18,222 bases of DNA, taken from positions 1 through 18,222 of the forward strand of contig QMOC01000002.1 of NCBI GenBank assembly GCA_003648085.1, in the 5' to 3' direction. This DNA is from Chloroflexota bacterium. GTDB taxonomy: Bacteria > Chloroflexota > Anaerolineae > B4-G1. The position numbers were made by a program, and so were the translations under genes. The stretch's first letter is position 1. The number at the start of each line of letters is the position of its first letter. The notes under the pieces are model-generated. The model ran no database searches. It saw only the letters and a program-made list of their open reading frames with translations, and was not told the DNA's origin. Below are positions 2,520 through 17,613 of this stretch, one piece after another.

Positions 2520-4046
2520 TCATGCCACATTCTCCCGTGCACCTGTCTCCCCAGAAGCCGAATGCTTATCGAGTATGGTCTTCATCAATTGCACAGTGCT
2601 GTGGTCAATGCCCCCCAGTAAAAATAGGGCTATGCCGTACACTATAAGACCCATAGGGAGGCGAAGCAGTAGAGGGAGTGAGCCTGCTAGCCACCAAGCA
2701 CCAAGCATAGTGAGAGTTGCCAGCAAGGGAATGAACAAATGCCTTGCGGGAAGCCGTCCCAGTAGTGGGAGTGTGCCAGCAAGGGCAAGCCCACTCTGGA
2801 TTCCCTGAGAAACTAGGACAGCTACAGCCGGCCCCACGTAGCTCAAACGCGGGATGAGCAGCAAGTTGAGAAAGAAGTTAGTCGCCAGTGCTCCCGACGT
2901 GCAAAGCAGGTCGTAACGCTGCCGGCCACTGGCTCGCAGCAGAGCTCGCAGAAGTGCATTGACTGCTGCCAGCACTACTGCAGGAGCCAGAACCTGAAGG
3001 GCAAGCGCCGCTTCCCCAAATTCTCCTCCCAGCAGCCAGGGAGTAAAATAGGAGGCAAACATTACATAAAATCCTGCCAGCGGCAAAGTGGTCAACAAAA
3101 GCGCCTTCAGGCCACTGACAGTGATCCACTGGAGATAGTTTTTCGATATGCGAGCAGCCGCCGCCATACTTGGGAAAAGCGCATCGGGAACGGAAGAGGT
3201 CAGGGAGTTGGTCAACTGGTAGACACGATTAGGACCGGAGAAGAGTCCCACTGTGGCCGAATCACTTACTGTGCTTAATTGCACGATACCTACTCGATCA
3301 TACACTCTGCGGGCTCCCAGCGTCAGGCCAATCGGCCATGCCTCCCTCAGCAAAAAGCGCCATACTCTCAAGTTTACGCTAGGGCGGGGACGAGGGAGAT
3401 GTATCCAGCAGATAATGAAAGCCGAGGTCAGCCGGATGATGGCAGCGAAAAGGAAGACCAAGAAAACAACCACTAGGCCCAGATCCAGCCAAACGACGAG
3501 TAGGATGCCGACGACCCAACAGGCACGGTCCAGCAAGGTGATGATGGTCTCATAACCCATTATCTCATAAGCGCGCAAGGCGGTGACCAACGTATTGGCG
3601 TAGGTACGGATGCCACTTTCCAAGGCGCAGATGGACAAAAGAAGCCACTCCAGAGAACCGAAAGAGCAGGCGATGGCTGCCGTCATCACCACGACTAGAA
3701 AGAGAAGCACCAATAGGGTCTTCAGGACCAACGTCTGGCCGAGGAGCCTCGAACCGTGCTCGCGTTGTTTCGCGATTTCTCGGTTTAGGATAACATTAAG
3801 GCCGATGTCCCCCAGGATGCTGCAGGTGCCTACAAATGCGTAGATGCTAGTATAGAGCCCGTATCCTGCCTTGCCCAGATAACGAGTCAGCAACGGTAGT
3901 ATCAGCACTGTCACAAGGGCGGTTGCGGCCTGAGAAATGAAAAGCGCAAGCGAGTTGCGTGCAGTCCTGCCAAGTACAGTGCTCCTGCAGGTACCCTGAG
4001 TCTGCAAGCCTCTCTTCGCTCCGTGCTGTCTCTTAAGTTCAGGCAA
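2520..4046 (-). CDS. polysaccharide/oligosaccharide flippase (Wzx-like, MOP superfamily)
   Basis: This 508-aa, highly hydrophobic protein would move the completed lipid-linked oligosaccharide across the membrane. After about 30 basic, polar residues comes RNSLALFISQAATALVTVLI and then LPLLTRYLGKAGYGLY, the typical first-helix pattern of the Polysacc_synt (RfbX/Wzx) family, followed by evenly spaced segments consistent with 12-14 helices. The start is probably TTG at 4046, preceded by AGAGGG at a short 4-nt spacing and 8 nt after the stop of the phosphodiesterase-like gene P1. No later in-frame ATG with a better ribosome site is evident. It sits in an operon with an initiating transferase, which supports export of a polyprenyl-linked glycan. 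Confidence 0.88.
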   Translation of the reverse strand: MPELKRQHGAKRGLQTQGTCRSTVLGRTARNSLALFISQAATALVTVLILPLLTRYLGKAGYGLYTSIYAFVGTCSILGDIGLNVILNREIAKQREHGSRLLGQTLVLKTLLVLLFLVVVMTAAIACSFGSLEWLLLSICALESGIRTYANTLVTALRAYEIMGYETIITLLDRACWVVGILLVVWLDLGLVVVFLVFLFAAIIRLTSAFIICWIHLPRPRPSVNLRVWRFLLREAWPIGLTLGARRVYDRVGIVQLSTVSDSATVGLFSGPNRVYQLTNSLTSSVPDALFPSMAAAARISKNYLQWITVSGLKALLLTTLPLAGFYVMFASYFTPWLLGGEFGEAALALQVLAPAVVLAAVNALLRALLRASGRQRYDLLCTSGALATNFFLNLLLIPRLSYVGPAVAVLVSQGIQSGLALAGTLPLLGRLPARHLFIPLLATLTMLGAWWLAGSLPLLLRLPMGLIVYGIALFLLGGIDHSTVQLMKTILDKHSASGETGARENVA

Positions 4047-4054
4047 TAGTCCCT

Positions 4055-5743
4055 CTAGATATAGCCCAAGTCGCTTAGACGATCCAGAACCTGCTTTTCC
4101 TCGCTCATTTCATACCCACTTTGTCTGCCTGCCATATCAAGGACATTTTCAAGGTACTGGACAGGGTGACGTGCTCGATACTGAGAATCAATTACCTCGC
4201 TCAGCACCCTTCCATCCATATCAGAGGGGATAGGAACATCCATCAGGTATAAAATCGTCGGTGCGATATCCTGCAGTCTAGCCCCTTCGATGTGAGCACC
4301 AGGCGTGATATTCTCACCCCACAGCATACAAATGCCGTTTAACTTATGGGAGGCATTCGGGCGTGTGAGTTGAGCCAATTGCCTCTTATCGAGTATCTCG
4401 ACCGGGTACTTACGTTGGGAAAGTGTACCGTGAAGAGTGAGCGGCATATATGGTTCACTAGCCCATACCACCAAGAGATCAGGGATTAGATTCAGGAACG
4501 GTCCATGGTACAGTTCCTCCCGTTTGTATACCCGGGCCACGAGCGGTTCGTCTGTCAGGGGATCTCGCATACCTAGCAGCCGCTGTGCAATTTCGTCCCG
4601 TAAGGCTTCGTACTCCGCGCCAGGCGATACGATGCCCTTCGGTTCTCGTCCCTTCAGGTTGATCCAGATCGTTCCTCGGACTTCAAGTGAATAGGCACGC
4701 GTGCGGTCCCAGTCAATGTCGGAAAGCACAAAGAGGGAGGGGAGTTGACGACGCACTTCCGAGAACCTACCCAGCAGCCATTCTCTAGGCCGCCTTGGAA
4801 CCGTACTACGTATCCACACCCACATCCTCCACAGTTCCTTAGTCAAGAACTGACTACGGAACCGCTGGAGACGGTTGCTCTGAAATGAAAGCCAGCCTTG
4901 GTCTCGCAGCCAAGTGTTTAGATATACTACGCGGTCCCCAACGGGTCCTGCACCATGGTCAGACAGAACGATCAAGGTCTTTACCTCAGACATGTACCGG
5001 CCAAGCAACTGATCCATATGCTGATAGACCTGAAGGATTGCTTGGGAGAATTGTTCATCTCCCGGCTGGCGATGAGGATGATTAGGGTCTAAGTTTTTCC
5101 AGAACCAGTGCTGGACTAAGTCCGTGGAACGAAAGAGGATGACGAAGAGATCACAAGGGAAGCGAGAACGCAGGAATTGTCCTACTTCGTAGCGCTTCTC
5201 TTCTGAACGGATTAATTCTTTTACAAGGCGAGCAGGGTCCTGCCGGGGACCATACATCAAAGGGAATGACCGTGTTTCGATGGTATAATCCGGAAAGCGC
5301 TCCAGGAGTTCCTCCTGAAGCTCAGGCGGATGGGTGAAGCGGCTTTGAATAGAGGGAGTGTCCATCCCTGAGATGAGGAAGCCGTTCACTGGCTCAGGCG
5401 GATAAGTCATCGGCATATTCAACACACCGACCTGTTTGCCCAGGCTGCTTAGGTACGCCCAAAAAGTTCTGCTGTGCCGATTTGATGCGTTGACAATCTG
5501 GAGAGCGTAACTCCCCGGTTGGCGCATGATAAAATCAACAATACCATGCTTCCCCACATTCTTGCCGGTCATAAAAGTGGTCCAGGCCGGCGCCGTCATA
5601 GGAGGAACAGTGGAGAGCAGAGGGCCTGCAGCCCCTTCACGCAGAATACGGGCTATATTCGGCAACCGACCCTCCTGAACCCAAGGATGGATCAGATCGA
5701 AAGTGGCACCATCCAGCCCAACAACAATGATCTTCTCGGACAT
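4055..5743 (-). CDS. alkaline phosphatase superfamily protein P1 (type I phosphodiesterase/nucleotide pyrophosphatase-like)
   Basis: A 562-aa protein with every canonical residue of the NPP branch of the alkaline phosphatase superfamily: D11 (GLDGATF), nucleophile T50 (PMTAPAW), D208/H212 (STDLVQH), D262/H263 (SDHG) and H466 (SHKLNG). It should be a two-metal phospho- or sulfo-hydrolase or transferase. There is no signal peptide or transmembrane segment, so a cytoplasmic location is likely. NMPMTYPPEPVNG (109-121), KGREPKGIV (364-372) and the C-terminal RLSDLGYI are shared with three paralogues in this window. The ATG at 5743 is preferred; an in-frame GTG lies one codon upstream. It is the first gene of the downstream operon, 8 nt before the flippase gene. 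The substrate is unknown; a phosphodiester or nucleotide-linked glycan intermediate is a guess from context. Confidence 0.88.
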   Translation of the reverse strand: MSEKIIVVGLDGATFDLIHPWVQEGRLPNIARILREGAAGPLLSTVPPMTAPAWTTFMTGKNVGKHGIVDFIMRQPGSYALQIVNASNRHSRTFWAYLSSLGKQVGVLNMPMTYPPEPVNGFLISGMDTPSIQSRFTHPPELQEELLERFPDYTIETRSFPLMYGPRQDPARLVKELIRSEEKRYEVGQFLRSRFPCDLFVILFRSTDLVQHWFWKNLDPNHPHRQPGDEQFSQAILQVYQHMDQLLGRYMSEVKTLIVLSDHGAGPVGDRVVYLNTWLRDQGWLSFQSNRLQRFRSQFLTKELWRMWVWIRSTVPRRPREWLLGRFSEVRRQLPSLFVLSDIDWDRTRAYSLEVRGTIWINLKGREPKGIVSPGAEYEALRDEIAQRLLGMRDPLTDEPLVARVYKREELYHGPFLNLIPDLLVVWASEPYMPLTLHGTLSQRKYPVEILDKRQLAQLTRPNASHKLNGICMLWGENITPGAHIEGARLQDIAPTILYLMDVPIPSDMDGRVLSEVIDSQYRARHPVQYLENVLDMAGRQSGYEMSEEKQVLDRLSDLGYI

Positions 5744-5760
5744 CACTTGCTAGTTTCCAT
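5743..5760 (-). other. possible five-codon leader ORF coupled to P1
   Basis: On the minus strand, ATG GAA ACT AGC AAG TGA lies directly before P1, and its TGA shares one A with the P1 ATG (TGATG). With only a weak GGAAA in front of P1, stop-restart coupling could help initiation. The leader itself has no clear Shine-Dalgarno, so this may be chance. Confidence 0.15.
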
Positions 5761-5791
5761 ACACTTCATTCAATGGGGTGCGTGGATTTAC

Positions 5792-5820
5792 ATTATAGTG
5801 CAAATTGAGAGAGGTGCAAG
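5792..5820 (-). promoter_or_regulatory. predicted promoter of the P1-flippase-methyltransferase-sugar transferase operon
   Basis: A perfect TATAAT (plus-strand ATTATA at 5792-5797) lies about 45 nt upstream of the P1 start. The -35 region is weak: TTGCAC at 5814-5819 with a 16-nt spacer, or CTTGCA with 17 nt. The predicted transcript would start near 5785. The -35 region lies inside a palindrome, so control by a DNA-binding protein is plausible. The -10 box is seen directly; promoter activity is inferred. Confidence 0.5.
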
Positions 5821-5833
5821 GACGCTTGCACCT
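5812..5833. promoter_or_regulatory. 22-bp palindrome, candidate operator
   Basis: AGGTGCAAG and CTTGCACCT form a perfect 9-bp inverted repeat around GACG, overlapping the likely -35 of the P1 promoter. A third partial copy (GTGCAA, 5798-5803) touches the -10 box in the same orientation as the left half, 16 nt away. The symmetry and position suit a dimeric regulator. As RNA it would be upstream of the predicted start, so a terminator is unlikely. The rest of 5834-5971 contains nothing I can identify. Confidence 0.45.
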
Positions 5834-5971
5834 GTGGGTTTTCGGAATAGAAACAGCAAACGGCATCCCTTGATTGACTTACCGTCACACGGGGCGGATG
5901 CTGATCGGATATATTTCAAAGGGGCTTCGATTCGTCTGCCGCGTGATATGACCAGACGCAGGGATTTGTTG

Positions 5972-6010
5972 CAAAAAGAAAATCTGGCCTCCATATATAG
6001 AGGCCAGATT
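5972..6010 (-). terminator. strong intrinsic terminator of the secreted protein gene
   Basis: On the minus strand AATCTGGCCTC and GAGGCCAGATT form a perfect 11-bp stem with an 8-nt loop, followed directly by TTCTTTTTG. It starts about 30 nt after the stop codon of the secreted protein gene. The plus-strand side has no T tract, so it works only for minus-strand transcripts. It insulates the downstream operon from this gene. Confidence 0.92.
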
Positions 6011-6040
6011 CCTGTGCGTGTACTAACCAGTAATAAGGGG

Positions 6041-7597
6041 CTAGTCCAGCGGCTCGGCGTTAAACGCACCGTACCGGTCCGCTGACCAGAGCAAGTCTGA
6101 CGTGGCCACTATAGGCTGATCGGACGTTACCACAACCGTGCCCTTCCAGTCATCACCCAGCACATCGCCAAAGGTGGAGGTACGCAGGTTCATCCCGTCC
6201 ACGATCTGATACTGCACGGCTGACTGGTCGAGATACTCCATGGCCAAGGTACCGTCCCAGTTGTAGAAATAGAAGTCAATATCATTGGCAGTACCGGTGC
6301 CCACATTCATTACGCGCAGCAAATTCCACCGGTTATCGGCTGGCTGGTTACGGCGACGCCAAGCGGTAGGGATGGCCAACGTGGTCGCTGCATCATCATC
6401 AGTGACGGAGGCGTACATAGCCGACGTAGCCTGGCGCATTTTCACATTGAAGACAACCGCTGCAATGTTAGCCCCAGCCTCACCCTCAACCACTGCCGAC
6501 CCAACCCAGATGCAATAACCGTCAGTCCAATCACCAAGGCTGGTGTTGGAGGGAGTAGAAGTGTCATCCCAATACTCCAGTTCTTGATAGAACTCAGCAC
6601 CACCCGGCGTATCGGCTCCGGTGCGGGTATTATAGCCGTGTGCACAGCCAGCGCAGAGTGTATCGTTGAAAGAGCGAGTTAGACCGGTAGCTTTACTGTA
6701 GAAGGTCACGGTAATGTCCACTGGATTGTCGAGATCGAAGTTTTGCACGATAATGGAAGTCAGGCCCTCCCATTTCCCGTGCCGTGCATCCGTGGCTTCG
6801 TACAATTTACGCTCGACATTGGTCAGGTAGATTTTCTCACCGCCACCGGTCAGGGCGCTGTAGGAGGCCGCATACTCAGTCCAGGTATTCAACAGGGCCG
6901 CAGCCACTGGATTGTCTGCCTGGATAATGACCCCACCGGTCCAGTTACCATTCGCTGCCCAATAAGCGGTTGCCGTGAAATCCGGCACGCCGGGGGAAGT
7001 CGGATCAGTCATGTCATAGGTGTTCATACCATTGCCGGGAATGGTGTCATTGTAAGGCCCATAGCTAGTGCCATCGCGATCAATGTAGGTGATCTGGATA
7101 TTTGTATCGGAGGAACTGGTGTTCTGGACCGAGAAGGTGGAGTACTGGGTAATGTCCCCCGTCCCTCCGGCCCGGGCATAAACCGCGTAGGGCAGGTAGA
7201 GGGTCTCAGCAGGCTCGGAGAAACCATTGTAGTAACCTACCCGCATATCATCCGTAGCGCTGCCGCCCTCAAACATTAGCTCGGCGACAGAGGCTATTGG
7301 CTTGTCAGAGCTCACGACCATCGAACCTCTCCAAGGGCTGCTCAGGCCCGAGGCGTCGGCCTCGAACTCGTACCCGCCGTAGCCGGTGATGGTCCGTGAA
7401 AGCTCAACATCCGGCGAGGCACCGCCGCTCTCCGGCCAGTACGCGGCCACAACCTCGGTCGTGTCGGGAGAAGGCTGCAAGCCCATCACGAAGACATCAG
7501 CATCAATCGTACCTGGCGTTGCATCAGCAGCCAATGCAACCCCAACCATGCCCAGTACGAGCACCAAGGCTCCTAGTGTAGACAACTTCTTTTTCAT
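6041..7597 (-). CDS. secreted protein of four tandem beta-sandwich-like repeats
   Basis: This 518-aa protein has a classical signal peptide: MKKK, a hydrophobic core to about residue 20, and a likely cleavage after ALA at 23. No lipobox, sorting signal or C-terminal anchor is seen. The mature part is four divergent repeats of roughly 100-140 residues (about 30-126, 133-248, 255-396, 405-518). Each has a VQN/VMN-like strand, a Y..DGT-type hairpin, a GG-V/VVV segment before SD.PIA (GSMVVSSDKPIAS, GGVIIQADNPVAA, GTVVVTSDQPIVA) and a closing YNGF-like motif. Repeat 3 carries CAGC (315-318) and another Cys at 362. I do not recognise a named family with certainty; similar secreted repeats occur in Chloroflexota. 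It has its own promoter and terminator, so it is probably abundant. A cell-surface structural protein or glycan carrier is inferred from context. Confidence 0.85.
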   Translation of the reverse strand: MKKKLSTLGALVLVLGMVGVALAADATPGTIDADVFVMGLQPSPDTTEVVAAYWPESGGASPDVELSRTITGYGGYEFEADASGLSSPWRGSMVVSSDKPIASVAELMFEGGSATDDMRVGYYNGFSEPAETLYLPYAVYARAGGTGDITQYSTFSVQNTSSSDTNIQITYIDRDGTSYGPYNDTIPGNGMNTYDMTDPTSPGVPDFTATAYWAANGNWTGGVIIQADNPVAAALLNTWTEYAASYSALTGGGEKIYLTNVERKLYEATDARHGKWEGLTSIIVQNFDLDNPVDITVTFYSKATGLTRSFNDTLCAGCAHGYNTRTGADTPGGAEFYQELEYWDDTSTPSNTSLGDWTDGYCIWVGSAVVEGEAGANIAAVVFNVKMRQATSAMYASVTDDDAATTLAIPTAWRRRNQPADNRWNLLRVMNVGTGTANDIDFYFYNWDGTLAMEYLDQSAVQYQIVDGMNLRTSTFGDVLGDDWKGTVVVTSDQPIVATSDLLWSADRYGAFNAEPLD

Positions 7598-7606
7598 AAC
7601 TATTTT

Positions 7607-7613
7607 CCTCCTT
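7607..7613 (-). promoter_or_regulatory. consensus ribosome binding site of the secreted protein gene
   Basis: AAGGAGG on the minus strand lies 9 nt before the ATG at 7597, with an A-rich spacer. It is the strongest ribosome site in the window and fixes this start. Confidence 0.9.
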
Positions 7614-7625
7614 TAGTTAAATTTT

Positions 7626-7664
7626 GAGTGGGAATAAGAGTAGAACACATCTGCTCTTCCACTC
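7626..7664 (-). promoter_or_regulatory. hairpin at the predicted 5' end of the secreted protein mRNA
   Basis: Starting at the predicted first transcribed base, GAGTGG pairs with CCACTC (6 bp). After a 4-nt bulge on one side, AAGAG pairs with CTCTT, then one mismatch, AGA with TCT, and a 5-nt loop. It leaves the ribosome site 12 nt further down single-stranded. Hairpins at the extreme 5' end stabilise some abundant bacterial mRNAs such as ompA. That role here is inferred. Confidence 0.55.
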
Positions 7665-7670
7665 ATTGCC

Positions 7671-7699
7671 ATTATAGCCAGAAACCTACCAAAAGGCAA
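7671..7699 (-). promoter_or_regulatory. sigma70-type promoter of the secreted protein gene
   Basis: On the minus strand, TTGCCT (7694-7699, four of six consensus bases) and a perfect TATAAT (7671-7676) are separated by exactly 17 nt. Transcription would start near 7664, giving a 5' leader of about 67 nt. It is the best promoter match that I found in the window. Confidence 0.8.
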
Positions 7700-7719
7700 T
7701 AATGCTTTAGGATTATTGC
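7696..7719. repeat. 8-bp inverted repeat overlapping the -35 box: operator or weak terminator
   Basis: GCAATAAT and ATTATTGC flank an 8-nt spacer; the low-coordinate arm covers part of the -35 box. Read as minus-strand RNA it is a hairpin followed by CTTTTGG, so it could instead be a weak terminator of the GT39 operon ending at 7755. A second hairpin, ACCGTG-CCC-CACGGT at 7734-7748, lies 6 nt after the GT39 stop without a U tract. Sequence alone does not decide between the two roles. Confidence 0.5.
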
Positions 7720-7754
7720 GGCTACAACAGCCTACCGTGCCCCACGGTTCCGCT

Positions 7755-9344
7755 TCACTCCCGCCAGGTGACAGATGCACCTTCTGGCAGCACAAACTTC
7801 CGGCTCTCGGCCACCAATGTCTCCAGTGGGACCCCTTTGCCCAGATACAGAACCCGTATGTCATAGAATTGAATCACCACCGCTGGCAGACTATCTACCC
7901 ACGCCGCCATAGAGCCATCCCGGTCTATGTTAACCCGCTGCCCCCATCCCTGCACAAACCACATACGCGGGTAGGTATGGTAGATCTCCTGTACTGCCTC
8001 CAGGGAGAGGCTGGGCAAGAAGTGTTTCTTGAGGGATGGTTGATACAGGTCCAGGAAGCGGTCGTAGGCAGGAGCCGAGATAGGCTGATTAGGTTGGACA
8101 TTTTCGACGAGGAACTGGGCTACGCCGCGCAGGTCCATCTTCCGTTCCTCGTAATAATCATCCAGACCTAAAATGCCAGGCACGATGAAGACGAAGGCGA
8201 TCAGCAAAATTGCCAGTGCTATGCGGCCTCCCCGTCGCGGGACTGCGTGGGCCAATCCAGCAGCCCCTGCTGCGATGAGGCCATAGTAAAACGACGCTAA
8301 GAAGATCAGATATCTGGATAGCAGTTTCCGCGGCGTGACGAGATACAGCACGCCCCATGGCACAGCGAACCACAGGGTCACTAAAAGCAACACACGCCAA
8401 CGGCGTTGCCAGACCAACGCTCCTAACCCGACGCCCGCCAGTCCTAGGGCCGGCCATAGGATCCAGCCCCCGCCGACTCCCATCTCTGCTAGTTTGTCAG
8501 CTATGACTGCGAAGCCGATTTGCATCCCGCTTGCCGCTGCCTCCTTGCTCAACTGGCGTTCGAAGAAGTTCACCTGCATCACGGGTACCCAGGGTAAGTA
8601 CGCCAGGACAAAAGCCAGCAGGCTTAGGCCGAACGCGCGAACGCGGGGAGGGGGAGGCCACCCTCTGCCCGTCTGCCACTCTAAAAGCCAGGCACGTCCA
8701 AGAACCAGTGCACCGAATAATCCCTCCGTGGCCACGGCGAAGAGGGCGAAGTAATGAGTGTACAGTGCTAGCGCCAGGAAGCAACAGAACCCTACCCACT
8801 GGCAGCGCTCATCGGTGTGAATCGCCCGCCACAGGAAAGCCATCGAGAGGGCGCTGAAGAGCAGAAAAAGTGTATAGGCCCGCGCTTCTTGGGAATATCG
8901 GATCAGAAAAGGTGAGATGACGGCCATGCTGACCGCTAGTCTTCCCTCCAGCCGTCCCCACAGTCGCCGCACCAAGATGTAGATCGCCGGAATAGCCAGC
9001 AGGCCGAAGCAGGCCGCAGGGAAGCGAAGGAGGAACTCGCCCTCACCCAGGTAGAGAATGAAGTGGAATGGGATCATCGCCAGAAGCGGCTGTGCCTGGC
9101 GACGAAGCATATGGGGCATTTCTATAAGGGAAAGAGAAGCATAACGCCAAGTGAAGATCTCATCGAACCAAAAACTGTCCTCGCTGAGCCGATGCAACCG
9201 CAGGGCCCAGGCAATCCACAACGACAGAATCCAAAAAGACAGTGAATTGGTGTGTGAGATGGTATTTTCCGTCATCCACCCCGCAATTAAACCCTGCTTC
9301 CAGTTTTTCCTTCGTCCACCTGCTCCCCCATCCAGGTTGTCCAA
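7755..9344 (-). CDS. GT39/PMT_2-family membrane glycosyltransferase (ArnT-like fold)
   Basis: A 529-aa polytopic membrane protein, expected to transfer a sugar from a polyprenyl-phosphate donor on the outer side of the membrane. The first helix (about 35-50) is followed by a periplasmic-type loop with WFDEIFTW, whose Asp-Glu (D61/E62) is the signature acidic pair of GT39/GT-C enzymes, and then RYSQEARAYTLF (149-160), typical of Chloroflexota and cyanobacterial PMT_2 proteins. About ten hydrophobic segments precede a soluble C-terminal domain from about 400. The start is TTG at 9344, because AGGAGGG (9351-9357) sits 6 nt upstream; an ATG at codon 24 has no such site. It is the last gene of the upstream operon, 24 nt after P2. 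Acceptor and donor sugars are unknown. Confidence 0.87.
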   Translation of the reverse strand: MDNLDGGAGGRRKNWKQGLIAGWMTENTISHTNSLSFWILSLWIAWALRLHRLSEDSFWFDEIFTWRYASLSLIEMPHMLRRQAQPLLAMIPFHFILYLGEGEFLLRFPAACFGLLAIPAIYILVRRLWGRLEGRLAVSMAVISPFLIRYSQEARAYTLFLLFSALSMAFLWRAIHTDERCQWVGFCCFLALALYTHYFALFAVATEGLFGALVLGRAWLLEWQTGRGWPPPPRVRAFGLSLLAFVLAYLPWVPVMQVNFFERQLSKEAAASGMQIGFAVIADKLAEMGVGGGWILWPALGLAGVGLGALVWQRRWRVLLLVTLWFAVPWGVLYLVTPRKLLSRYLIFLASFYYGLIAAGAAGLAHAVPRRGGRIALAILLIAFVFIVPGILGLDDYYEERKMDLRGVAQFLVENVQPNQPISAPAYDRFLDLYQPSLKKHFLPSLSLEAVQEIYHTYPRMWFVQGWGQRVNIDRDGSMAAWVDSLPAVVIQFYDIRVLYLGKGVPLETLVAESRKFVLPEGASVTWRE

Positions 9345-9368
9345 CTTACACCCTCCTGGTACGGTTCC

Positions 9369-11039
9369 CTACCAATACCCCAGGTCACGCAGCCGCTGTT
9401 CCACTACTTCCTCGTCGCCAGGAGCGAATACTTCGACGGACCGGGGTTTCGGCATGTGCACCCGCTGCCGCACTTCCGGTTGTCTGGATACTAACGCTGG
9501 ATCGAGCATAGAGTAAAGAACACGCCCGTCCATATGGTCAGGCACAGGCTGATCAAGCAGGTAGAGGATTGTCGGCGCCAGATCGAAGATGGTCGCCCTC
9601 TCCACATGGATACCCTGCTGCACTCCCCGTCCCCAGGCGATTAGAATCCCATCGCGCATATGGTCACCGGAGAGAGTGGTATAGCCAAAAGCATGCTCCC
9701 CCCACGGTTCGTTAGCCGCAAAGTGAGTGCGTCGCTCCTCCGGTACCTCATGCCAGACGACACGTAAATCAGGGCTTTCGTCGGTGAAAGGCCCTTCATA
9801 TAATGCATCCCGTCGCCACACCTCGGCCACCACTGGTTCGCCGTAAAGGGGATCGCGCAGAGCCAGTAACCTCTCCCGCAGTTCCTCGCACAATGTATCG
9901 TACTCAGTCCCCGGCTCCACGATCCCCTGTGGCTCGCGTCCTTTTACATTTAGCCAGAACCCGTTGTCCGTCGTCCAGAATACTCTCGTTCGCGCCCAGT
10001 CCACGTCCCACGCCAAGGTCATGCTGCGCAACCGGCTGGGGACAGCCCAGCCGGGGAGCAGCCGTACCGCCGCTCGCTTGACGAGGCCGCCCAACCCTGT
10101 TCGCTTGAAGAACCGCCGTCCCCAAGCGACAGCGGCGGACGTGCTATGCCGCCATCGGAGATACCCCTCCTCGGCGAGCCACCGGTTGGGGAAGAAGAAC
10201 TGGTGCACGCCTCCCAATCCGTGGTCTGACATCACCACCACTGTCGTCGTCCGCGGATCGACAGCCTCCAACAGTTCTCCTACTAGGTGATCCAACTGCT
10301 CATAATGAGCGGGGATTGCGCCACCGAATCGCTCCGCGCTGGCCGGATCGTGGAGGGGATGCCGGGAATCCATATCGTCCCATAGGTAAGTCTGCAACCT
10401 ATCCAGACCGGTGAACACTACTATAAAGAAATCCCATGTCCCCAGTTCCCGCATCAGGAAACGGGCTGCAGCCGCCCGTCGCTCTGCTCCCTCTGTGACC
10501 TCCCGTTGAAGACGTTCTTTCATATCTATACGTGGCACAGCGCCCAGGATCGTCGGCTCCAGGCGATAGCCGGGTACGGCTTGAAGAAGCCGCTCCCCCA
10601 ACTCCGGGGGATAGGTGAAATTGCTGCGGAGATCAGGCGTTAGCATCCCCGCCACCAACACACCTTGCACTGGCGCAGGTGGGTAAGTCACAGGTACGTT
10701 CAACACCCCCACGCGCAGCCCCTGCTCGCTCAGCAGATGCCACAAGGTGGGCAGCCGCACCATGTTCGCATTGATCAACTCGACGCCGTAGTCCCCTGCT
10801 CTCTTACGCGCGAAGTCGTACACTCCGTGGCGGCCCGGATTGCTGCCCGTCGCGAAGGAGACCCAGGCCGCGGCGCTCACGTAGGGGATGCTGGAACGGA
10901 GCGGGCCGTGCACTCCCTCCGCCATCAGACGACCCAGGTTTGGCAGTCTGCCGGTTTCTAAGAGTGGTTTCATCACCAGCCAGGTTGCCGAATCGAGGCC
11001 AATGACCAGAACCTTGGGGGCATTGGGGTGGTGTCCCAT
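9369..11039 (-). CDS. alkaline phosphatase superfamily protein P2, divergent active site
   Basis: This 556-aa paralogue of P1, P3 and P4 keeps D16 (GLDSATW), D213, D272/H273 (SDHG) and H460 (GDHMRDG). Two key positions differ: the nucleophile is Ser55 (YVSAAAW) where the others have Thr, and the His of the DxxxH metal motif is Thr217 (DRLQT). Activity may be changed or lost; D222/D224/H227 just after it might substitute. NVPVTYPP (114-121), KGREPQGIVEPG (366-377) and the terminal RLRDLGYW are retained. There is no signal peptide. The ATG at 11039 is chosen: AGGGAA lies about 8 nt upstream, and it begins 10 nt after the GT2 stop. A longer frame from 11132 would run into the GT2 gene without extra homology. 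Confidence 0.85.
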   Translation of the reverse strand: MGHHPNAPKVLVIGLDSATWLVMKPLLETGRLPNLGRLMAEGVHGPLRSSIPYVSAAAWVSFATGSNPGRHGVYDFARKRAGDYGVELINANMVRLPTLWHLLSEQGLRVGVLNVPVTYPPAPVQGVLVAGMLTPDLRSNFTYPPELGERLLQAVPGYRLEPTILGAVPRIDMKERLQREVTEGAERRAAAARFLMRELGTWDFFIVVFTGLDRLQTYLWDDMDSRHPLHDPASAERFGGAIPAHYEQLDHLVGELLEAVDPRTTTVVVMSDHGLGGVHQFFFPNRWLAEEGYLRWRHSTSAAVAWGRRFFKRTGLGGLVKRAAVRLLPGWAVPSRLRSMTLAWDVDWARTRVFWTTDNGFWLNVKGREPQGIVEPGTEYDTLCEELRERLLALRDPLYGEPVVAEVWRRDALYEGPFTDESPDLRVVWHEVPEERRTHFAANEPWGEHAFGYTTLSGDHMRDGILIAWGRGVQQGIHVERATIFDLAPTILYLLDQPVPDHMDGRVLYSMLDPALVSRQPEVRQRVHMPKPRSVEVFAPGDEEVVEQRLRDLGYW

Positions 11040-11049
11040 GATTCTTTCC

Positions 11050-11979
11050 CTACGGTTCCCTGCGCTCGAAACGTCCGGCTGCAAAGTCCCACACGCCGCG
11101 CCAGATCCCCCACCACACATCGAAGTCCTCATCGCGCGCCACCGCCTTCACGGCCTGCCACCCCCAAAGAAGGGGGAAGTAGAAGCCAAACTGCACCCAA
11201 TGGTGCCAACAGGCGTGCTTACGCATTGTGAGGAGCCGGTTGCGCGTCATATGGTAGTAGGTGAATGCTCCTCCCCACCGTCGCGCACTATACCCCACCT
11301 TATGCCAGATGACCGCGTCGGGGCAATATAGAATCGCATACCCTGCCTGAAGGAGACGCAGTGAGAGATCCACATCCTCACCGAAGAAGAAATAGCGTGG
11401 GTCGAACAACCCCACCTGCTCCACGGCTGCCCGCCCCAGGAGCAGCCCACAGCCTGTGGCGAAAGAGACTAATCTAGCGTCGTCAAACTGCCCTATGTCC
11501 TCCTGGTCTATGCCCCGATGCAGGGCGCTTCCCTGCCTCCAGTCTATAGTTCCCCCTGCGTACCACAGCCGCCGTGGTGAATCCATGTAATAGATCTTGG
11601 GCACTACAGCGCCGATCCACCGATTTTGCCCCATTGCGTTTACCATCCGCTCCAGGGTATTCTCAGCGACCGTCGCATCATTGTTTAGAAGGAACAGGTG
11701 CGTGGCCGACGGGTCGTCCAGGAAGCGCTCTGCTCCCAGGTTGTTGGCCCGACCGAACCCCAAGTTTTCCCCCGCTTCCAAAACCTCCACGGTTGGGTGA
11801 CAGGTGCGGATGGCCTGGACCGAGTCGTCCATAGAGCCGTTGTCCACGACCAGGATGTGAACCGGTCGCAGCGTGGAGCGCATAATAGATGCCAGGCAGG
11901 TCAACGTATCTTCCCGCCCGTTCCAGTTTACGACGACAACCCATACCTTCGCTGCAGACGAGGGCTCCGGCTCAGACAC
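11050..11979 (-). CDS. family 2 glycosyltransferase (rhamnosyltransferase-like)
   Basis: A 309-aa GT-A enzyme, likely adding one sugar from an NDP-sugar to the lipid-linked acceptor on the cytoplasmic side. It shows VVVVNWNGREDTL (14-26), VVDNGSMDDS (44-53), GENLGFGRANN (70-80), the metal-binding LLNND (97-101) and FFGEDVDLSLRL (198-209), the pattern of WbbL/RfbF-like GT2 proteins. The GTG start at 11979 is supported by AGGAGG with a 6-nt spacer; the preceding 50 codons open to 12129 are out-of-frame reading of the GT4 gene. It overlaps the GT4 stop by 8 nt and is followed by P2 after 10 nt, so these three are translated from one message. The C-terminus has short hydrophobic, Trp-rich stretches that may touch the membrane. 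Confidence 0.92.
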   Translation of the reverse strand: MSEPEPSSAAKVWVVVVNWNGREDTLTCLASIMRSTLRPVHILVVDNGSMDDSVQAIRTCHPTVEVLEAGENLGFGRANNLGAERFLDDPSATHLFLLNNDATVAENTLERMVNAMGQNRWIGAVVPKIYYMDSPRRLWYAGGTIDWRQGSALHRGIDQEDIGQFDDARLVSFATGCGLLLGRAAVEQVGLFDPRYFFFGEDVDLSLRLLQAGYAILYCPDAVIWHKVGYSARRWGGAFTYYHMTRNRLLTMRKHACWHHWVQFGFYFPLLWGWQAVKAVARDEDFDVWWGIWRGVWDFAAGRFERREP

Positions 11980-13102
11980 CCACCGCCTCCTGGTACACTG
12001 CCACTGTCTCTCGGGCAGCTTTCTCCCACGAGAACTGGGCTGCGCGGACCAAGCCGGCCAACACGAGCTCTTGTCTTTTTGCCTCGTCACACAGCAAATC
12101 GCGCAGCGCTTGGGCCAGCGCGCTGACATCGTAAGGGTCGAAGAGCATTGCCGCCTCCCCCACCACCTCCGGAAGTGATGAAGCGCTGGAGCAAATGACG
12201 GGAGTCCCGCAGGTCATTGCCTCCAAGGGGGGCAGACCGAACCCTTCGTAGACCGAGGGATAGACAAAGACCTCTGCCCCCCGATATAAGGCAGGGAGGT
12301 CCTCGTCAGACACATAGCCGGGAAAACGAACACGCTGGGCCAGCCCTTGTTCCTCCACTCGCCGGGCGACCTGCGCTCCCTGCCATTGAGACTGCCCGGC
12401 AATGATTAGTATCACGTCCTCTTCAATCGCTGCCTTTGCCACCAACATACCGAAGGCTTCCACTAGTCGTCCCAGGTTCTTGCGGGGCTGGATGTCGCCG
12501 ACAGCAAGGACGTAGCGTCGCCCCTCCGCATACCGTTTCCGCACCTCTGTCACTTTCTCCTCCGGTATATCCACTAAGAACCGATCGTCGGCGGCTTCGT
12601 AAACAACTCGAATTTTTTCCTCCGAGATGTGATACCACCGAATTAGATCTCGCTTGGTCCATTCCGAGACAGCAATGACCCGTGCCGCTAAGCGGGAAGA
12701 AAGCGGCACGGTGGCGGATAGCAGCCACCGATCTCGAGGAGAGAAGAACTGTGGAAATAACTCGTAGGCGATGTCGTGGACTGTGACGACAGTGGGACAG
12801 GGACAGATAGGCGGTGCAGTGTAGCTGACATGCAGTACCTGTGCGCCGATGCGGTGACAGGTACGTGGTATCGCCCATGCTACTCGAGGGATGTTCTCCG
12901 CCGGACGGACGACCTGCAGTTCGAAGTTCGGCGGCAAGGAGAGCCTGCTTTGCAGGGGAGCAGGATCTGTGACCAGCAGCGTGTACCGATTCTCAGTGTC
13001 CACCCGGGTCAGGCCAGTGATCAGACCGAACATATACCACTCGCCCCCTGTCTCCCGCTGGCCGATCATATGGGCGTCAATCGCAACGTGTATCGGCGTC
13101 AT
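11972..13102 (-). CDS. family 4 glycosyltransferase (mannosyl/rhamnosyltransferase-like)
   Basis: A 376-aa GT-B enzyme using an NDP-sugar. The N-terminal domain starts [20 protein letters not shown], like other bacterial GT4 proteins. HVSYTAPP (91-98) and [14 protein letters not shown] (104-117) are family landmarks. The C-terminal domain has [12 protein letters not shown] (199-210) and the catalytic EX7E motif with E286 and E294 in [13 protein letters not shown]. The ATG at 13102 has GGAG only 2 nt away, close for a ribosome site, but no better start exists. It lies 22 nt after P3 and overlaps GT2 by 8 nt. The sugar is not predictable from sequence. Confidence 0.93.
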
Positions 13103-13124
13103 TTCTCCTTACCTATGCGCTGTC

Positions 13125-14819
13125 TCAATCCATATACCCCAGCCCGGCCAGACGTTCCTCGATCCAACGGTGCTCCTTTTCGGAATAGGCGTATCCCTCT
13201 TGATCTCTCATCTGTGCACCGACCCCGCCGTAGGTAAGGGGATGCGCGGCAAACCACTCGGCCAGAAACGCTTCCTCCACCACCCGTCCCTCCGCGTAGA
13301 CAGGAACTGGCTCCCCCATCATATACAGGACTGTCGGGAGCACATCACGCATGTCCACCCGGGTGATGGTGACTCCGGAGCGGATTCCTGGTCCATGCAG
13401 GATCAACGTCCCATCCATACGGTGGTCGCCAGTGATAGTGAGGGCATTAATTTCCTGCTCTGTAAGCAGGCGGATCGCCGGGCCACTGTGGTCGCCCCTG
13501 TGGATACTAAACTGGGACGGGGATTCCACCTCCACCAGTAAGTCGGGGATACAGTCCAAGAACGGCCCGTCGAACAGTTCCTCCCGCCGCCAGACCTTGT
13601 GCACCACCGGTGCGCCTGTCTCCGGGGCCGCCATGCTCTCCAGAGCAGCAATGATCTCACTGCGCAATGTCTCATACTCTATACCGGGCTCCACGATACC
13701 CTGCGGGTCTCGTCCCTGCAGATTAATCCAGATATTGCCACGCCGTTCCTCGGAAAAGGCCTGGGTGCGAGACCAGTCCACGCCCGCGAAAAGTTCATAG
13801 CCGCTCAGCCACCTCCGCCAGCGATCAGGCCACATCCGGCGGAGCCAGGTCAGTCGTTGGTAAGGGAACAGGCTATACGCCACTCCCTTTAAACGTGTGA
13901 TCCCATCGGCAACCCAATGCCTGGCACGACCTTCGGGGCCACCATCCTCCTCAAAATGAAGCCAACCGTGGGAGGCAAGCCAGCGGTTCAGGTGGATAGC
14001 CCTGAGCGCGCGCCCTCCGGATCCATGATCCGAGACGATCACGATAGAAACGTCGCCGCCTAACTCCTCCAACAGATCCCCTAGGCACTCGTCCGTACGC
14101 TGGTATACCGACAGGAGTACATCACCTAACTGTCCAGCCAGCACCGGGTCATGGCCGGGGAAGGCCGGATCGTGCAGGTGCCAGAAGAAGTGCGCTGCCC
14201 CGTCCGTGGCACTAACAACAAACATGCAGAAGTCCCAATCCCGTGTCCGTGTCAAGTGCCGCACGGCGGCAAAACGGATGTCCACTTCGTTCAGTAGTTC
14301 CTCCCGAGCTTTCCCAGGGCGGCCAAGTCGCATCCAGCGCCAGTCGTTAGGCACAATCACGTAAGGACAGCCAAGCACTCTTTCTAACTCCTCCCGAACC
14401 CCCGTCGGATGTGTGAATGAACTGTGGAGGCCGGGCGTGTCCCTGCCAGCAACGAGAACCCCGTTCACCGGTTCTGGCGGGAAGGTCATCGGCACGTTGA
14501 CCACGATGACGCGACGGTCGCGCTCGCTGAGGACCGTCCACAGCGCTGGGGCAGCCCGAAAACTAGCGTTCGTCAGGCGGAAGCCGTAGATTTCCAGATC
14601 CCGCTCCCAGAAGTCAAATAATCGGTGGCGGCCGGCATTCACCCCGGTCACCATCGTTGTCCATGCTTGTGCTGTATAGGGATGAACAGTGGAACGAAGT
14701 GGGCCGGATGTGCCATGCTGGAGCAACCACGCCAGTGTCGGCAGTTTCCCCTTTTCGGCCCAAAGGCGGATCAGATCCAGTGACGCTCCATCAAGCCCTA
14801 CGACGATGACCTTGCTCAT
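13125..14819 (-). CDS. alkaline phosphatase superfamily protein P3
   Basis: A 564-aa protein with the full set of superfamily residues: D10 (GLDGASL), nucleophile T49 (PYTAQAW), D206/H210 (TDGAAH), D264/H265 (SDHG) and H466 (GDHRMDG). One oddity is GRHR at 63-66, where the relatives have GxHG; the glycine after His is Arg. NVPMTFPPEPVNG (108-120), QGRDPQGIVEPG (368-379) and the C-terminal ERLAGLGYMD are shared with the paralogues. There is no signal peptide or transmembrane helix. The ATG lies 1 nt after the stop of P4 (TGAGATG), without a clear ribosome site of its own, so it is probably translated by coupling. The two adjacent genes look like an old tandem duplication. Substrate unknown. 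Confidence 0.87.
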   Translation of the reverse strand: MSKVIVVGLDGASLDLIRLWAEKGKLPTLAWLLQHGTSGPLRSTVHPYTAQAWTTMVTGVNAGRHRLFDFWERDLEIYGFRLTNASFRAAPALWTVLSERDRRVIVVNVPMTFPPEPVNGVLVAGRDTPGLHSSFTHPTGVREELERVLGCPYVIVPNDWRWMRLGRPGKAREELLNEVDIRFAAVRHLTRTRDWDFCMFVVSATDGAAHFFWHLHDPAFPGHDPVLAGQLGDVLLSVYQRTDECLGDLLEELGGDVSIVIVSDHGSGGRALRAIHLNRWLASHGWLHFEEDGGPEGRARHWVADGITRLKGVAYSLFPYQRLTWLRRMWPDRWRRWLSGYELFAGVDWSRTQAFSEERRGNIWINLQGRDPQGIVEPGIEYETLRSEIIAALESMAAPETGAPVVHKVWRREELFDGPFLDCIPDLLVEVESPSQFSIHRGDHSGPAIRLLTEQEINALTITGDHRMDGTLILHGPGIRSGVTITRVDMRDVLPTVLYMMGEPVPVYAEGRVVEEAFLAEWFAAHPLTYGGVGAQMRDQEGYAYSEKEHRWIEERLAGLGYMD

Positions 14820-14820
14820 C

Positions 14821-16485
14821 TCAGTCTAGATATCCTAGATCGCTCAAGTGCTCTTCCAAGAGCCGCCGCTCATCCGGGGTGTATGCCTTCTCGTCTGACG
14901 TGCCTCGGACCGAGATACGGTCAGCCAGAGGTTCGCGTCGTGGCAATCGTGCTGCTAGCCAGTCGGGATCCAGGATCTCCTCCAATACACGACCATCCAT
15001 CTCAGAAGGCACTGGAAGCCCGAGTAGGTATAGGACGGTTGGTGCCACGTCTATGATCGCTGCCTCCCTGCGGTCGTGCATCTGTCGCATCCCGGCCCCT
15101 GCAGCGATCAGGATTCCATCCCGGGCGTGCCCTCCCTGTCCCTCACTGCTCACATCCACAAAGATATCCCCCTCGTAGGCGACCTCCGGGGTACACTCAT
15201 ATCCTTCGATAGGCTCGAAGAGGATATCAGGGGCCAGGTGGAGGAAGGGACCCTGATAGATTGCCTCGCGCTCATGAACGTGCTTTATCACTGGAAGCCC
15301 ATTACGGGGATCACGTAGTTCAGCCAGTCCAGTGATGATCTCAGAACGCACCTCACGGTAATGCCGACCGGCCACGACCACCCCTTCGGGCTCTCTCCCC
15401 ACCATGTTGATGTGGACGGCGTTCTCGGACGCATCACCCGAGTAGGCCAGGGTGCGAGTCCACTCCAGTGTGCGAGTAACAGCAAGAGTTCGCCGTCCCC
15501 AGAGCAGAAGCCGCCTGGGAAGAAGCCGCTTCAGCCAACCTCGTGTCCTCTTGGCGTGTCGTCGCGCGGCTCTTGCTCCCTCCCTGAACTCTAGCCACCC
15601 TCCTTGGGCCAGCCACTCGTTCAGGCGAACTTGGGTGTGCAGCCCACAGAAACCATGGTCAGACATGACAAGAATCGTTGTCTTATTGTCACGCCGTGCC
15701 AGTAGGTCCCCCAAGGCCTGATCTACTGCCTGATAGACCGCGAGCACGCGCTGACAGGTGCGATCCTTTCGTGCTGCCTCTGGCTCTTGGATTAACCGCT
15801 CAATGTAGCGCCATGCGAAGTGCTGAATCCGGTCAGTGGCAACGAAGACGAGGACGAAGAAATCTGTCGGTCGCTCTGCCAGCAACTGGAGCGCCACACG
15901 CGTCCGGCCCTGCACTGTGGTGACCAGGTCGTCCGCGAGGTTGATGATTTGCTCCTCAGTGCGAAGCTCCCGCTCACGGCGACCGATGTGGAGATCAACC
16001 ACATATTTCCGCGTGCGCAGCATGCGCTGGATGTCCTCAGGATAGGCGACAGCCAGATTCCCGTCCGGGGACAACATGCCCGAAATCACATACCCCTGGA
16101 GCGGCTCCACAGGATACGTCATCGGCACATTAATCAGGCCAGCCGAGAGGTTGAACAGGTTAAGGAACTCCCATATACGGGGGGCACGGATGGCGGAAGC
16201 ATTGCAGACGGGACGTTCCCAGCGCCCCCACATCGGTCCCCGGAAGGCATAGACGCCATGTCGCCCGGGATTACAGCCCGTCAAGAAGGAAGCCCACGCC
16301 GGGGCGGTGATAGGAGGCAGGGTCGAGAGCAAGGACACCGTGGTCCCCTCGTGCATCAGTTGTGCCAGATTAGGCATCCAGCCGCGCGCTGCGAACACAT
16401 CCAGCAGCCGGAACGTGCCTCCGTCGAGCCCGATCACCCAGACGTGCTCTGCGCGAGGTTCCATAATGGAAACAAGATCCGACAC
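14821..16485 (-). CDS. alkaline phosphatase superfamily protein P4
   Basis: A 554-aa paralogue with D21 (GLDGGTF), nucleophile T60 (PITAPAW), D218/H222 (TDRIQH), D276/H277 (SDHG) and H453 (GGHARDG), so both metal sites look intact. NVPMTYPVEPLQG (119-131), GREPEGVV (363-370), YQGPFLHLAPDILFE (410-424) and the terminal HLSDLGYLD match the paralogues. There is a basic, arginine-rich stretch at about 303-342 (RRHAKRTRGWLKRLLPRRLLLWGRR region) that might contact membrane lipids. The start is GTG at 16485, with GAGGT about 10 nt upstream; an ATG at codon 8 lacks a site. It follows the DUF1972 glycosyltransferase by 12 nt. Function probably parallels P1 and P3; substrate unknown. Confidence 0.87.
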   Translation of the reverse strand: MSDLVSIMEPRAEHVWVIGLDGGTFRLLDVFAARGWMPNLAQLMHEGTTVSLLSTLPPITAPAWASFLTGCNPGRHGVYAFRGPMWGRWERPVCNASAIRAPRIWEFLNLFNLSAGLINVPMTYPVEPLQGYVISGMLSPDGNLAVAYPEDIQRMLRTRKYVVDLHIGRRERELRTEEQIINLADDLVTTVQGRTRVALQLLAERPTDFFVLVFVATDRIQHFAWRYIERLIQEPEAARKDRTCQRVLAVYQAVDQALGDLLARRDNKTTILVMSDHGFCGLHTQVRLNEWLAQGGWLEFREGARAARRHAKRTRGWLKRLLPRRLLLWGRRTLAVTRTLEWTRTLAYSGDASENAVHINMVGREPEGVVVAGRHYREVRSEIITGLAELRDPRNGLPVIKHVHEREAIYQGPFLHLAPDILFEPIEGYECTPEVAYEGDIFVDVSSEGQGGHARDGILIAAGAGMRQMHDRREAAIIDVAPTVLYLLGLPVPSEMDGRVLEEILDPDWLAARLPRREPLADRISVRGTSDEKAYTPDERRLLEEHLSDLGYLD

Positions 16486-16497
16486 TGACCGCTTACC

Positions 16498-17613
16498 TCA
16501 TCTTCTGACCTGACCTACCGAGACTAACTGGTGGAACAGAGACTCGTAGGCATCGGTCACTTGCTCCCAGTCGTAATGGCGGGCCACGTGCTTCAACGCC
16601 TCCTGCCGGTATTGCTCGACCAGCTCTGGTTGGTTGAGCAACCTCTGCAAGACCCGCCGCAGTGCCCGTCCGCCTTCCTGTCCAGCATAACTCAGCCCGG
16701 CCGCCCCGATCGTCTCCAGGTTCTCCTGTGTGTCGTTGACGACGACGCAGTTACCGAGCGCCATTGCTTCCAGTAAGGCCGGATGAGTCCCGCCAACTGC
16801 TGAAGTCTCCACGAAGACATAGGCGTTGCTCGACAACTCTTCGTACCCCTCACCGAACACATAGCCGGTGAATATGACACGGGGATCAGTATTCGCTTTC
16901 AAGCGGGCGATGTAATCTTCTGCGTACGGTGCGTCGCCGACGATGACGCACTTATAATCGGTCTGAAGCCCAGCGAATGCCTCGATAAGGTGGTGAACAC
17001 AGTTCTCCGCAACTAGGCGGCCTACGAAAAGTACATATTCCCGAGGGCGCAATCCAAACCGGGCCAGCCACTTGCCGGCTGGACGGTGCACTACATCTGC
17101 CCCGTAGGCAATGTATATAGTCTCTGCGCCGTACCGCTTACGGTAGTACTGCTGCACCGCGCGCGAGTCGGTGACGGTCGCGTGAGGCAGGCGAGTAGCT
17201 ACGCGCTCCGCCCAGCGGATGTAGACCTTCGATAGACGGTTCCACTTCTCCCGTCTCCAATCCAGCCCATCCACATTCAAGACCACTTTCTGCCCAGCCA
17301 GACGTGGGATCCAAGCCAGGGGGCTGTTACCGACGATGAACATCATAACTACATCGTAGTCCTGGCCCAAAGCATGAAGAGTTGAAAGAAAGGTGTGAAG
17401 GATCGTGTCCAGATACTTGTTCTTGATAGTGGGTAAACGGACGAGCCGCATGCCGCGATAGGTGGGTTCGCGGTAATGGATATGGTGACTACGGCAGTAT
17501 ACAGTAACCTTGTGCCCACGTTTCACCAGCCGGCTGCCCAGTTGCTCGACGCAGGTCTCGAATCCACTGTAGGAGGCGGGTACTCCTCGCGTCCCCAACA
17601 TCGCGATCTTCAT
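16498..17613 (-). CDS. DUF1972-containing family 4 glycosyltransferase (rhamnosyltransferase WchF/RgpA-like)
   Basis: A 371-aa GT-B enzyme. The N-terminal MKIAMLGTRGVPASYSGFET followed by VEQLGSRLVKRGHKVTVYCR is the hallmark of the DUF1972 family, which includes beta-1,4-rhamnosyltransferases of capsule synthesis. NVDGLDWRREKWNR (about 113-126) and TDSRAVQQYY are also family landmarks. The C-terminal donor-binding domain ends in ETSAVGGTHPALLEAMALGN, the DUF1972 version of the GT4 EX7E region. It probably adds rhamnose or another hexose early in repeat-unit assembly, which is inferred from the family. The start is the ATG at 17613, 12 nt after the propeller gene; its nearest purine-rich site, GGAGGTGA, overlaps the previous stop at a long spacing, so translation may be coupled. 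Confidence 0.92.
   Translation of the reverse strand: MKIAMLGTRGVPASYSGFETCVEQLGSRLVKRGHKVTVYCRSHHIHYREPTYRGMRLVRLPTIKNKYLDTILHTFLSTLHALGQDYDVVMMFIVGNSPLAWIPRLAGQKVVLNVDGLDWRREKWNRLSKVYIRWAERVATRLPHATVTDSRAVQQYYRKRYGAETIYIAYGADVVHRPAGKWLARFGLRPREYVLFVGRLVAENCVHHLIEAFAGLQTDYKCVIVGDAPYAEDYIARLKANTDPRVIFTGYVFGEGYEELSSNAYVFVETSAVGGTHPALLEAMALGNCVVVNDTQENLETIGAAGLSYAGQEGGRALRRVLQRLLNQPELVEQYRQEALKHVARHYDWEQVTDAYESLFHQLVSVGQVRR

Follow-up and report, generated by a model that had tools for sequence, protein, structure and literature searches.

The window analysed here, the whole 18,222-nucleotide stretch formed by positions 1 to 18,222 of contig QMOC01000002.1 (assembly GCA_003648085.1) of a Chloroflexota bacterium of the class Anaerolineae, harbors a glycan-assembly operon in which four genes encode proteins of the alkaline phosphatase (AP) superfamily. 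These proteins, here termed P1 to P4, and their possible role in glycan sulfation are the subject of this analysis. Their open reading frames (ORFs) are all intact, lie on the minus strand and encode PF01663 proteins ending in a tail that closes with Leu-Gly-Tyr (the LGY tail): P1 (4055..5746; 563 aa, GTG start, long type as defined below), P2 (9369..11039; approximately 556 aa), P3 (13125..14819; 564 aa) and P4 (14821..16485; 554 aa, GTG start). The longest ORF for P2 extends to 11132 and encodes 587 aa, and as this form overlaps the adjacent GT2 gene, the start is probably located near 11039. Also on the minus strand are genes for an initiating polyprenyl-phosphate sugar-1-phosphate transferase (71..1486; CoA_binding_3 and Bac_transf domains), an S-adenosylmethionine (SAM) methyltransferase (1483..2478; PF13489) and a Wzx-type flippase (2520..4046; Polysacc_synt, by Pfam and NCBIfam), together with, by Pfam, a GT-C-like PMT_2 membrane protein (7755..9344), a GT2 glycosyltransferase (11050..12129; true start perhaps closer to 11883) and two GT4 glycosyltransferases (11972..13102 and 16498..17613), the latter of which also contains a DUF1972 domain and has a rhamnosyltransferase as its top NCBIfam match, under the cut-off of that profile. 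A 518-aa secreted protein with an N-terminal hydrophobic segment is encoded between the PMT_2 and P1 genes (6041..7597, minus strand); it has no Pfam or NCBIfam match and, lying inside a glycan operon, represents a candidate target or surface partner. A first-pass annotation of the window had placed four intact proteins of the nucleotide pyrophosphatase/phosphodiesterase (NPP) type among glycosyltransferases, a flippase and an initiating transferase, and this is confirmed by PF01663 scores of 112-142 bits (cut-off 23) and by the Pfam assignments of the neighbours. Its description of four paralogues stands as regards their intactness and divergence, but P2 is an active-site variant and the 518-aa secreted protein had been omitted.

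P1 to P4 share 33.8-39.1% pairwise amino acid identity across 518-534 alignment columns, and the common motifs previously ascribed to them are present in all four with small variations. Neither a signal peptide nor a membrane-type hydrophobic segment was found in any of them by a hydropathy scan, made without a dedicated predictor, in which peak 19-residue values reached 1.21-1.66, versus 2.88-3.01 for the Wzx, PMT_2 and initiating transferase proteins of the window; the N-termini of P1 and P3 open straight into the first core strand. The cytosolic location proposed earlier is as such upheld as a prediction. The structure model of P3 adopts an NPP fold (pLDDT 92.8). The seven positions of the NPP bimetal site, which we assigned from motif positions and what we take to be general features of the superfamily rather than from coordinates, are complete, with a Thr/Ser nucleophile, in P1, P3, P4 and 77 of the 81 ungapped long-type proteins. 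A PDB sequence search with P3 as the sole query returned no match. The closest relatives of P3 are named 'predicted AlkP superfamily phosphohydrolase/phosphomutase' by the Joint Genome Institute (JGI), a name that presumably corresponds to COG3379, and P1 to P4 appear to be members of this uncharacterised family. Two better-known enzyme classes were rejected on score, namely the cofactor-independent phosphoglycerate mutases (iPGM) and phosphomutases (TIGR01307; 19-21 bits for P1 and P4 versus a cut-off of 331) and phosphonoacetate hydrolase (TIGR02335; 20-29 bits for P1, P2 and P4 versus a cut-off of 408), neither of which matched P3. The genome of the window additionally encodes a 578-aa PF01663 protein (L008, 925-2661; G000:C415) that is distantly related and does not belong to the present family.

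Phylogenetic analysis of 166 proteins places P2, P3 and P4 beside proteins from other loci and not with one another. P3 groups with proteins of loci L012, L073, L074 and L075 (support 0.999), P4 with those of L012, L074 and L075 (0.93) and P2 with that of L075 (0.998), while P1 has no close partner among the 166 proteins. Furthermore, the gene order Wzx, P4-like, P3-like is repeated in L012, L074 and L075. The grouping of P2 to P4 with other loci indicates that the paralogues are old and have been kept apart, which suits distinct targets for each.

Of the 60 class genomes searched, 40 contain a match (E <= 1e-20), and the matches listed were split by eye into a long type of approximately 540-590 aa, mostly with the LGY tail, and a short type of approximately 450-490 aa. 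On this division the long type is present in 32 of the 60 genomes, including that of the window (G000), and the short type alone in eight; one of the latter (G048) also has a contig-edge fragment reaching the tail, and its reclassification would change the adenosine 5'-phosphosulfate (APS) kinase count given below from 28/32 to 29/33. Sixty long-type and 20 short-type loci, chosen from the match list rather than comprising all matches, were fetched for comparison. A glycosyltransferase is encoded within 5 kb in 43/60 long-type loci versus 3/20 control regions (Fisher 1.2e-5), and a flippase or exporter in 32/60 versus 5/20, the controls being regions of long contigs from nine of these genomes, positioned manually at round coordinates rather than drawn at random. 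These are counts of profile matches on all ORFs, as gene calling overlooked some genes, such as two APs in L075, which has three; the profiles were derived from these same fetched loci and favour the families that they contain, the 'Wzt' profile also picks up further ABC ATPases, as was evident in the controls, and many AP loci end at contig edges, which lowers the counts. The idea that the paralogues belong to glycan loci is thus borne out for the long type, whose relatives do not mostly occur alone and far from glycan genes; that situation, which the first-pass annotation had named as contrary to its proposal, is nearer the truth for the short branch, where a glycosyltransferase lies within 5 kb in 2/20 loci. 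One AP is encoded in 47 of the fetched long loci, two in ten and three in three, and as none holds more, the four APs of the window are an uncommon arrangement for this class. Multi-copy loci are also present in other phyla, with Wzx and GT4 genes alongside four APs in L013 (Desulfobacteria) and three each in L019 (Brocadia) and L022 (BMS3Abin06). Matches to PF00685 were observed 1.3 kb (G033:C3:653405-653998) and 0.2 kb (G052:C144:30801-31241) from a long AP gene, and these may be glycan loci that also hold a classical sulfotransferase.

The short branch is located beside sulfate activation genes. Of the 24 Sat genes of one type (at least 298.9 bits), all but that of G016 (23/24) have a short AP no more than 150 bp from the Sat domain, and Sat and AP are encoded in a single ORF of 863-905 aa in seven fetched loci (L133, L136, L137, L140, L143, L151 and L029; the fusion was checked by Pfam for L137). 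Sat, AP and APS kinase occur together in 12/20 short-type loci, six of which contain a second AP, and in the genome of the window Sat lies directly ahead of a 492-aa AP on contig C56. Sat genes of the Sat-CysC type likewise have an adjoining AP in G035 (long AP, 0.3 kb; L084), G048 (7 bp; L188) and G105, a genome from the same taxonomic family as the window (L217), while the G014 gene has a weak AP match in its vicinity (L191). The genes to which the family is fused or adjacent point to activated sulfate, whereas the roles initially suggested for P1 to P4 all involved phosphate chemistry and are not supported in that form; of these, the transfer of a group to each sugar fits, though with sulfate rather than phosphate as the group, and the data speak neither for nor against trimming or proofreading.

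A further connection is provided by the C-terminus of the long APs, a tail of approximately 20 residues (e.g. Y-S-x-E-E-E-A-x-I-E-E-R-L-R-G-L-G-Y). A hidden Markov model (HMM) of the tail, built from 77 of the 81 long-type proteins, was searched against the C-terminal 40 residues of 927 non-AP proteins, most of them encoded near AP genes and 21 of them APS kinase ORFs that had been deliberately added, and against their shuffles. It matched 15 of the 927, all of them APS kinases (E 5e-12 to 4e-8; four from the added set), with the next-best match at E 0.015 and the best of the 927 shuffles at 0.24. All 15 tail-bearing APS kinases are encoded at most 1.3 kb from an AP gene of the short branch. 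Among stand-alone APS kinases, the tail is present on 15 of the 22 located within 2.2 kb of an AP (those lacking it being in L084, L146, L151, L182, L184, L186 and L189) versus 0/11 for which the fetched stretch contains no AP (Fisher 1.7e-4), the latter comprising three plus eight judged by eye, with some of the stretches short. When relatives of one tail-bearing APS kinase were ranked by their similarity to it, 118 of the top 120 had the tail pattern. The folds of APS kinase and the AP domain are unrelated, so that the tail has either moved as a module or arisen by convergence, and we infer that it is a docking element.

The distribution of APS kinase (E < 1e-8), which synthesizes 3'-phosphoadenosine 5'-phosphosulfate (PAPS), follows that of the APs, being found in 28/32 long-AP, 8/8 short-only and 6/20 AP-less genomes (long versus none, Fisher 4.6e-5; counts uncorrected for kinship or genome size). 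When the 14 long-AP genomes with an APS kinase in a short-AP cassette are left out, the comparison is 14/18 versus 6/20 (p = 0.004). As a strong PAPS reductase is present in just 7/32 long-AP and 2/20 AP-less genomes, the pattern does not reflect plain sulfate assimilation; 22 of the 28 long-AP genomes with APS kinase are without one. Seven AP-bearing genomes, six with long APs and one short-only (G006, G009, G011, G028, G034, G043 and G054), combine APS kinase with the absence of PAPS reductase, PF00685 and PF13469, and PF03567, PF19798 and PF09037 had no match in 15 genomes including these seven, although the control genomes gave none either. Ten other genomes of the window's family were considered, nine of which have APS kinase. 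In four genomes of this family (L211, L212, L214 and L216) a stand-alone APS kinase gene adjoins one for an 803-845-aa PMT/GT39-like membrane protein, pairs that possibly serve to sulfate a glycan that is lipid-linked or exported.

We give an even chance to the reading that P1 to P4 are cytosolic sulfuryl transferases that act on lipid-linked sugars with PAPS as donor. They would place a sulfuryl group, with PAPS as its most likely source, on specific hydroxyls of the lipid-linked oligosaccharide while it grows and ahead of its flipping by Wzx, with each of the old paralogues serving a different sugar or position. With the SO3 group lodged between the metals, the Thr/Ser nucleophile would accept it as 3'-phosphoadenosine 5'-phosphate (PAP) departs, and the sugar hydroxyl would then take it off the enzyme, while the LGY tail would dock both the transferases and APS kinase onto one shared partner. 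In this scheme we infer the donor, the transferred group, the acceptor and the role of the tail, whereas the P3 fold, the motifs, the loci, the short-branch fusions, the tail in common and the co-occurrence are direct observations. A Thr/Ser nucleophile without formylglycine would be better suited to transfer than to sulfate release.

Precedent is provided by the archaeon Halobacterium salinarum, where the AP-domain proteins Agl30 (VNG1056C, membrane) and Agl31 (VNG1057C, soluble) are reported each to sulfate a different N-glycan sugar (PMC11980604, mBio 2025). Their role was assigned from deletion mutants and from heterologous expression in Haloferax volcanii, where the glycan gained sulfate (PMC11980604). 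In Haloferax, Agl7 is reported to contribute to the sulfation of dolichol-phosphate hexose (PMC3871713). On the evidence of the soluble Agl31 (PMC11980604), the earlier assertion that glycan-decorating AP relatives are all membrane-anchored and extracytoplasmic does not hold.

Several observations weigh against the sulfuryl transferase assignment. Its main weakness is the indirect basis of the link between long APs and sulfate, drawn as it is from the short branch, the tail, co-occurrence and precedent in another AP family; Sat or CysC lies within 3 kb in just 1/60 long-type loci (L084), and 0/8 stand-alone APS kinases seen in the window's family bear the tail. Both in fold and in bimetal site the proteins match phosphodiesterases, whose normal target is phosphorus. 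In P2, Thr replaces the metal-ligand His (P3 position 210), which leaves the bimetal site incomplete, and Ser replaces the nucleophile Thr. The same His210 to Thr change is found in its sister from another genus (L075), and the altered site therefore looks like a kept variant. P2 may be a partly inactive partner or may work with an altered second metal site; other active-site changes occur in two more long proteins (L127 and L098). As regards co-occurrence, whose counts carry the lack of correction noted above, the 83% complete draft genome of the window contains Sat and has APS kinase only as a weak match (5.7e-5), and the long-AP genomes G042, G047 and G051 are also without an APS kinase match at E < 1e-8. 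Two AP-less genomes, G025 and G024 (the latter with a contig-edge AP fragment), have APS kinase without a known consumer, and the APS kinase of G009 is an odd fusion. In the latter (L195:3020-4768; G009:C77), a 582-aa ORF joins APS kinase (residues 1-178) in frame to an ornithine aminotransferase (approximately 189-580), which represents either an odd fusion or an assembly artefact. Among the genomes of related loci (40 of the 61 loci), APS kinase at E < 1e-20 is present in 27/40 (14/17 for the bacterial L012-L028), a weak test since APS kinase is common regardless and occurs in 11/14 control genomes; the haloarchaeal relatives are not tied to it, with a strong match in 3/8 genomes. Sulfotransferases of PF00685/PF13469 also track the long APs (25/32 versus 4/20) and may be the enzymes that perform the sulfation. 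Finally, the deletion in Halobacterium left some sulfation, and a third AP-domain protein of that cluster, VNG1063H, showed no such role (PMC11980604).

The chief rival, which we regard as unlikely yet the most serious, is phosphate chemistry, in which P1 to P4 would transfer a phosphodiester group such as phosphoglycerol or hydrolyse nucleoside diphosphate (NDP)-sugars or lipid-linked pyrophosphates. It leaves the Sat fusions, the Sat neighbourhood and the APS-kinase tail unexplained, and genes that make a donor are absent from the 25 of 138 neighbour families listed. Decoration with phosphoglycerol or phosphocholine was rejected as a lead, as no cytidine diphosphate (CDP)-alcohol or phosphoglycerol family was found among those 25 of 138. 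The family search covered 88 of 208 unassigned neighbours within 4 kb of the APs, which include methyltransferases, O-antigen ligase (5), hexapeptide acyltransferases and others. Less probable still is that the AP proteins aid sulfate metabolism without being sulfotransferases, the Sat-linked members clearing pyrophosphate or PAP, thereby pulling PAPS synthesis, and the long ones clearing PAP or PAPS alongside other sulfotransferases. The Sat reaction is unfavourable unless pyrophosphate is removed, and the fusion of AP to Sat fits such a function, as do the classical sulfotransferases in 25/32 long-AP genomes and beside long-AP genes at G033:C3 and G052:C144, but four divergent old paralogues in a single glycan operon and the conserved P4-P3 pairs are left unexplained. 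That they are sulfatases trimming sulfate from sugars is highly improbable: the superfamily is shared and P4 matches PF00884 at 21.4 bits, but this lies below the cut-off of 25, the formylglycine signature C/S-x-P-x-R is absent from all four (TAPAW in P1 and P4, SAAAW in P2 and TAQAW in P3 at that site), which have NPP-type ligands instead, and the genes sit among synthesis genes; the formylglycine sulfatase assignment was rejected on signature and score.

More broadly, and more tentatively than for P1 to P4 themselves, it is possible that NPP-fold enzymes constitute a route of bacterial glycan sulfation that is intracellular, proceeds through a sulfo-Thr/Ser intermediate, is supplied by Sat-AP/APS-kinase cassettes and has its parts joined by a transferable LGY tail. 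The enzymes that sulfate bacterial and archaeal surface glycans are largely unknown, and searches for the classical families miss AP-superfamily enzymes. If the sulfuryl transferase reading is correct, a large uncharacterised family, present in 40/60 of the class genomes searched and with relatives in several other phyla, gains a function, and at least some PAPS-making genomes without a visible consumer are explained.

The reaction proposed for P1 to P4 is that of the classical PAPS sulfotransferases (PF00685, PF13469 and PF03567), none of which was found in the Pfam scans of P1 to P4 at E <= 0.001. With ENPP1, ENPP3 and Xac NPP they share 14-19% amino acid identity and have approximately 200 residues outside the aligned core; unlike these, they lack a signal peptide, are encoded in glycan loci and bear a C-terminal tail. 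COG3379 provides a name for the nearest relatives of P3 and assigns no reaction, and the one open-access paper found to mention it deals, judging by its title, with a different topic. The phosphoglycerol and phosphoethanolamine transferases LtaS, EptA and OpgB also belong to the AP superfamily and decorate glycans by group transfer, but are membrane-anchored and extracytoplasmic, whereas P1 to P4 show no membrane-type segment and are predicted to be cytosolic. With Agl30 and Agl31 they have in common an AP-superfamily core, genes within a glycan-assembly cluster and a predicted cytosolic side, Agl31 being soluble as is predicted for P1 to P4. In PMC11980604 the haloarchaeal proteins are linked to sulfatases, through an InterPro arylsulfatase assignment (VNG1057C) and top structural matches to glycosaminoglycan (GAG) and ulvan sulfatases, whereas P1 to P4 have the PF01663/NPP fold, are bacterial and carry a tail common to APS kinases, differences that set the two groups apart by description. 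In an open-access subset of the literature, nothing was found, among the titles listed, on COG3379 function, phosphodiesterases in glycan clusters, the AP superfamily in archaeal N-glycosylation, Sat-AP fusion or AP-type PAPS glycan sulfotransferases, and the term 'alkaline phosphatase' is absent from the main text of a sulfotransferase review (PMC11625862). Glycan sulfotransferases of the AP superfamily are thus already known, and what appears to be new is their PF01663/NPP type, their occurrence in bacterial Wzx loci, the fusion with Sat and the tail common to APS kinase.

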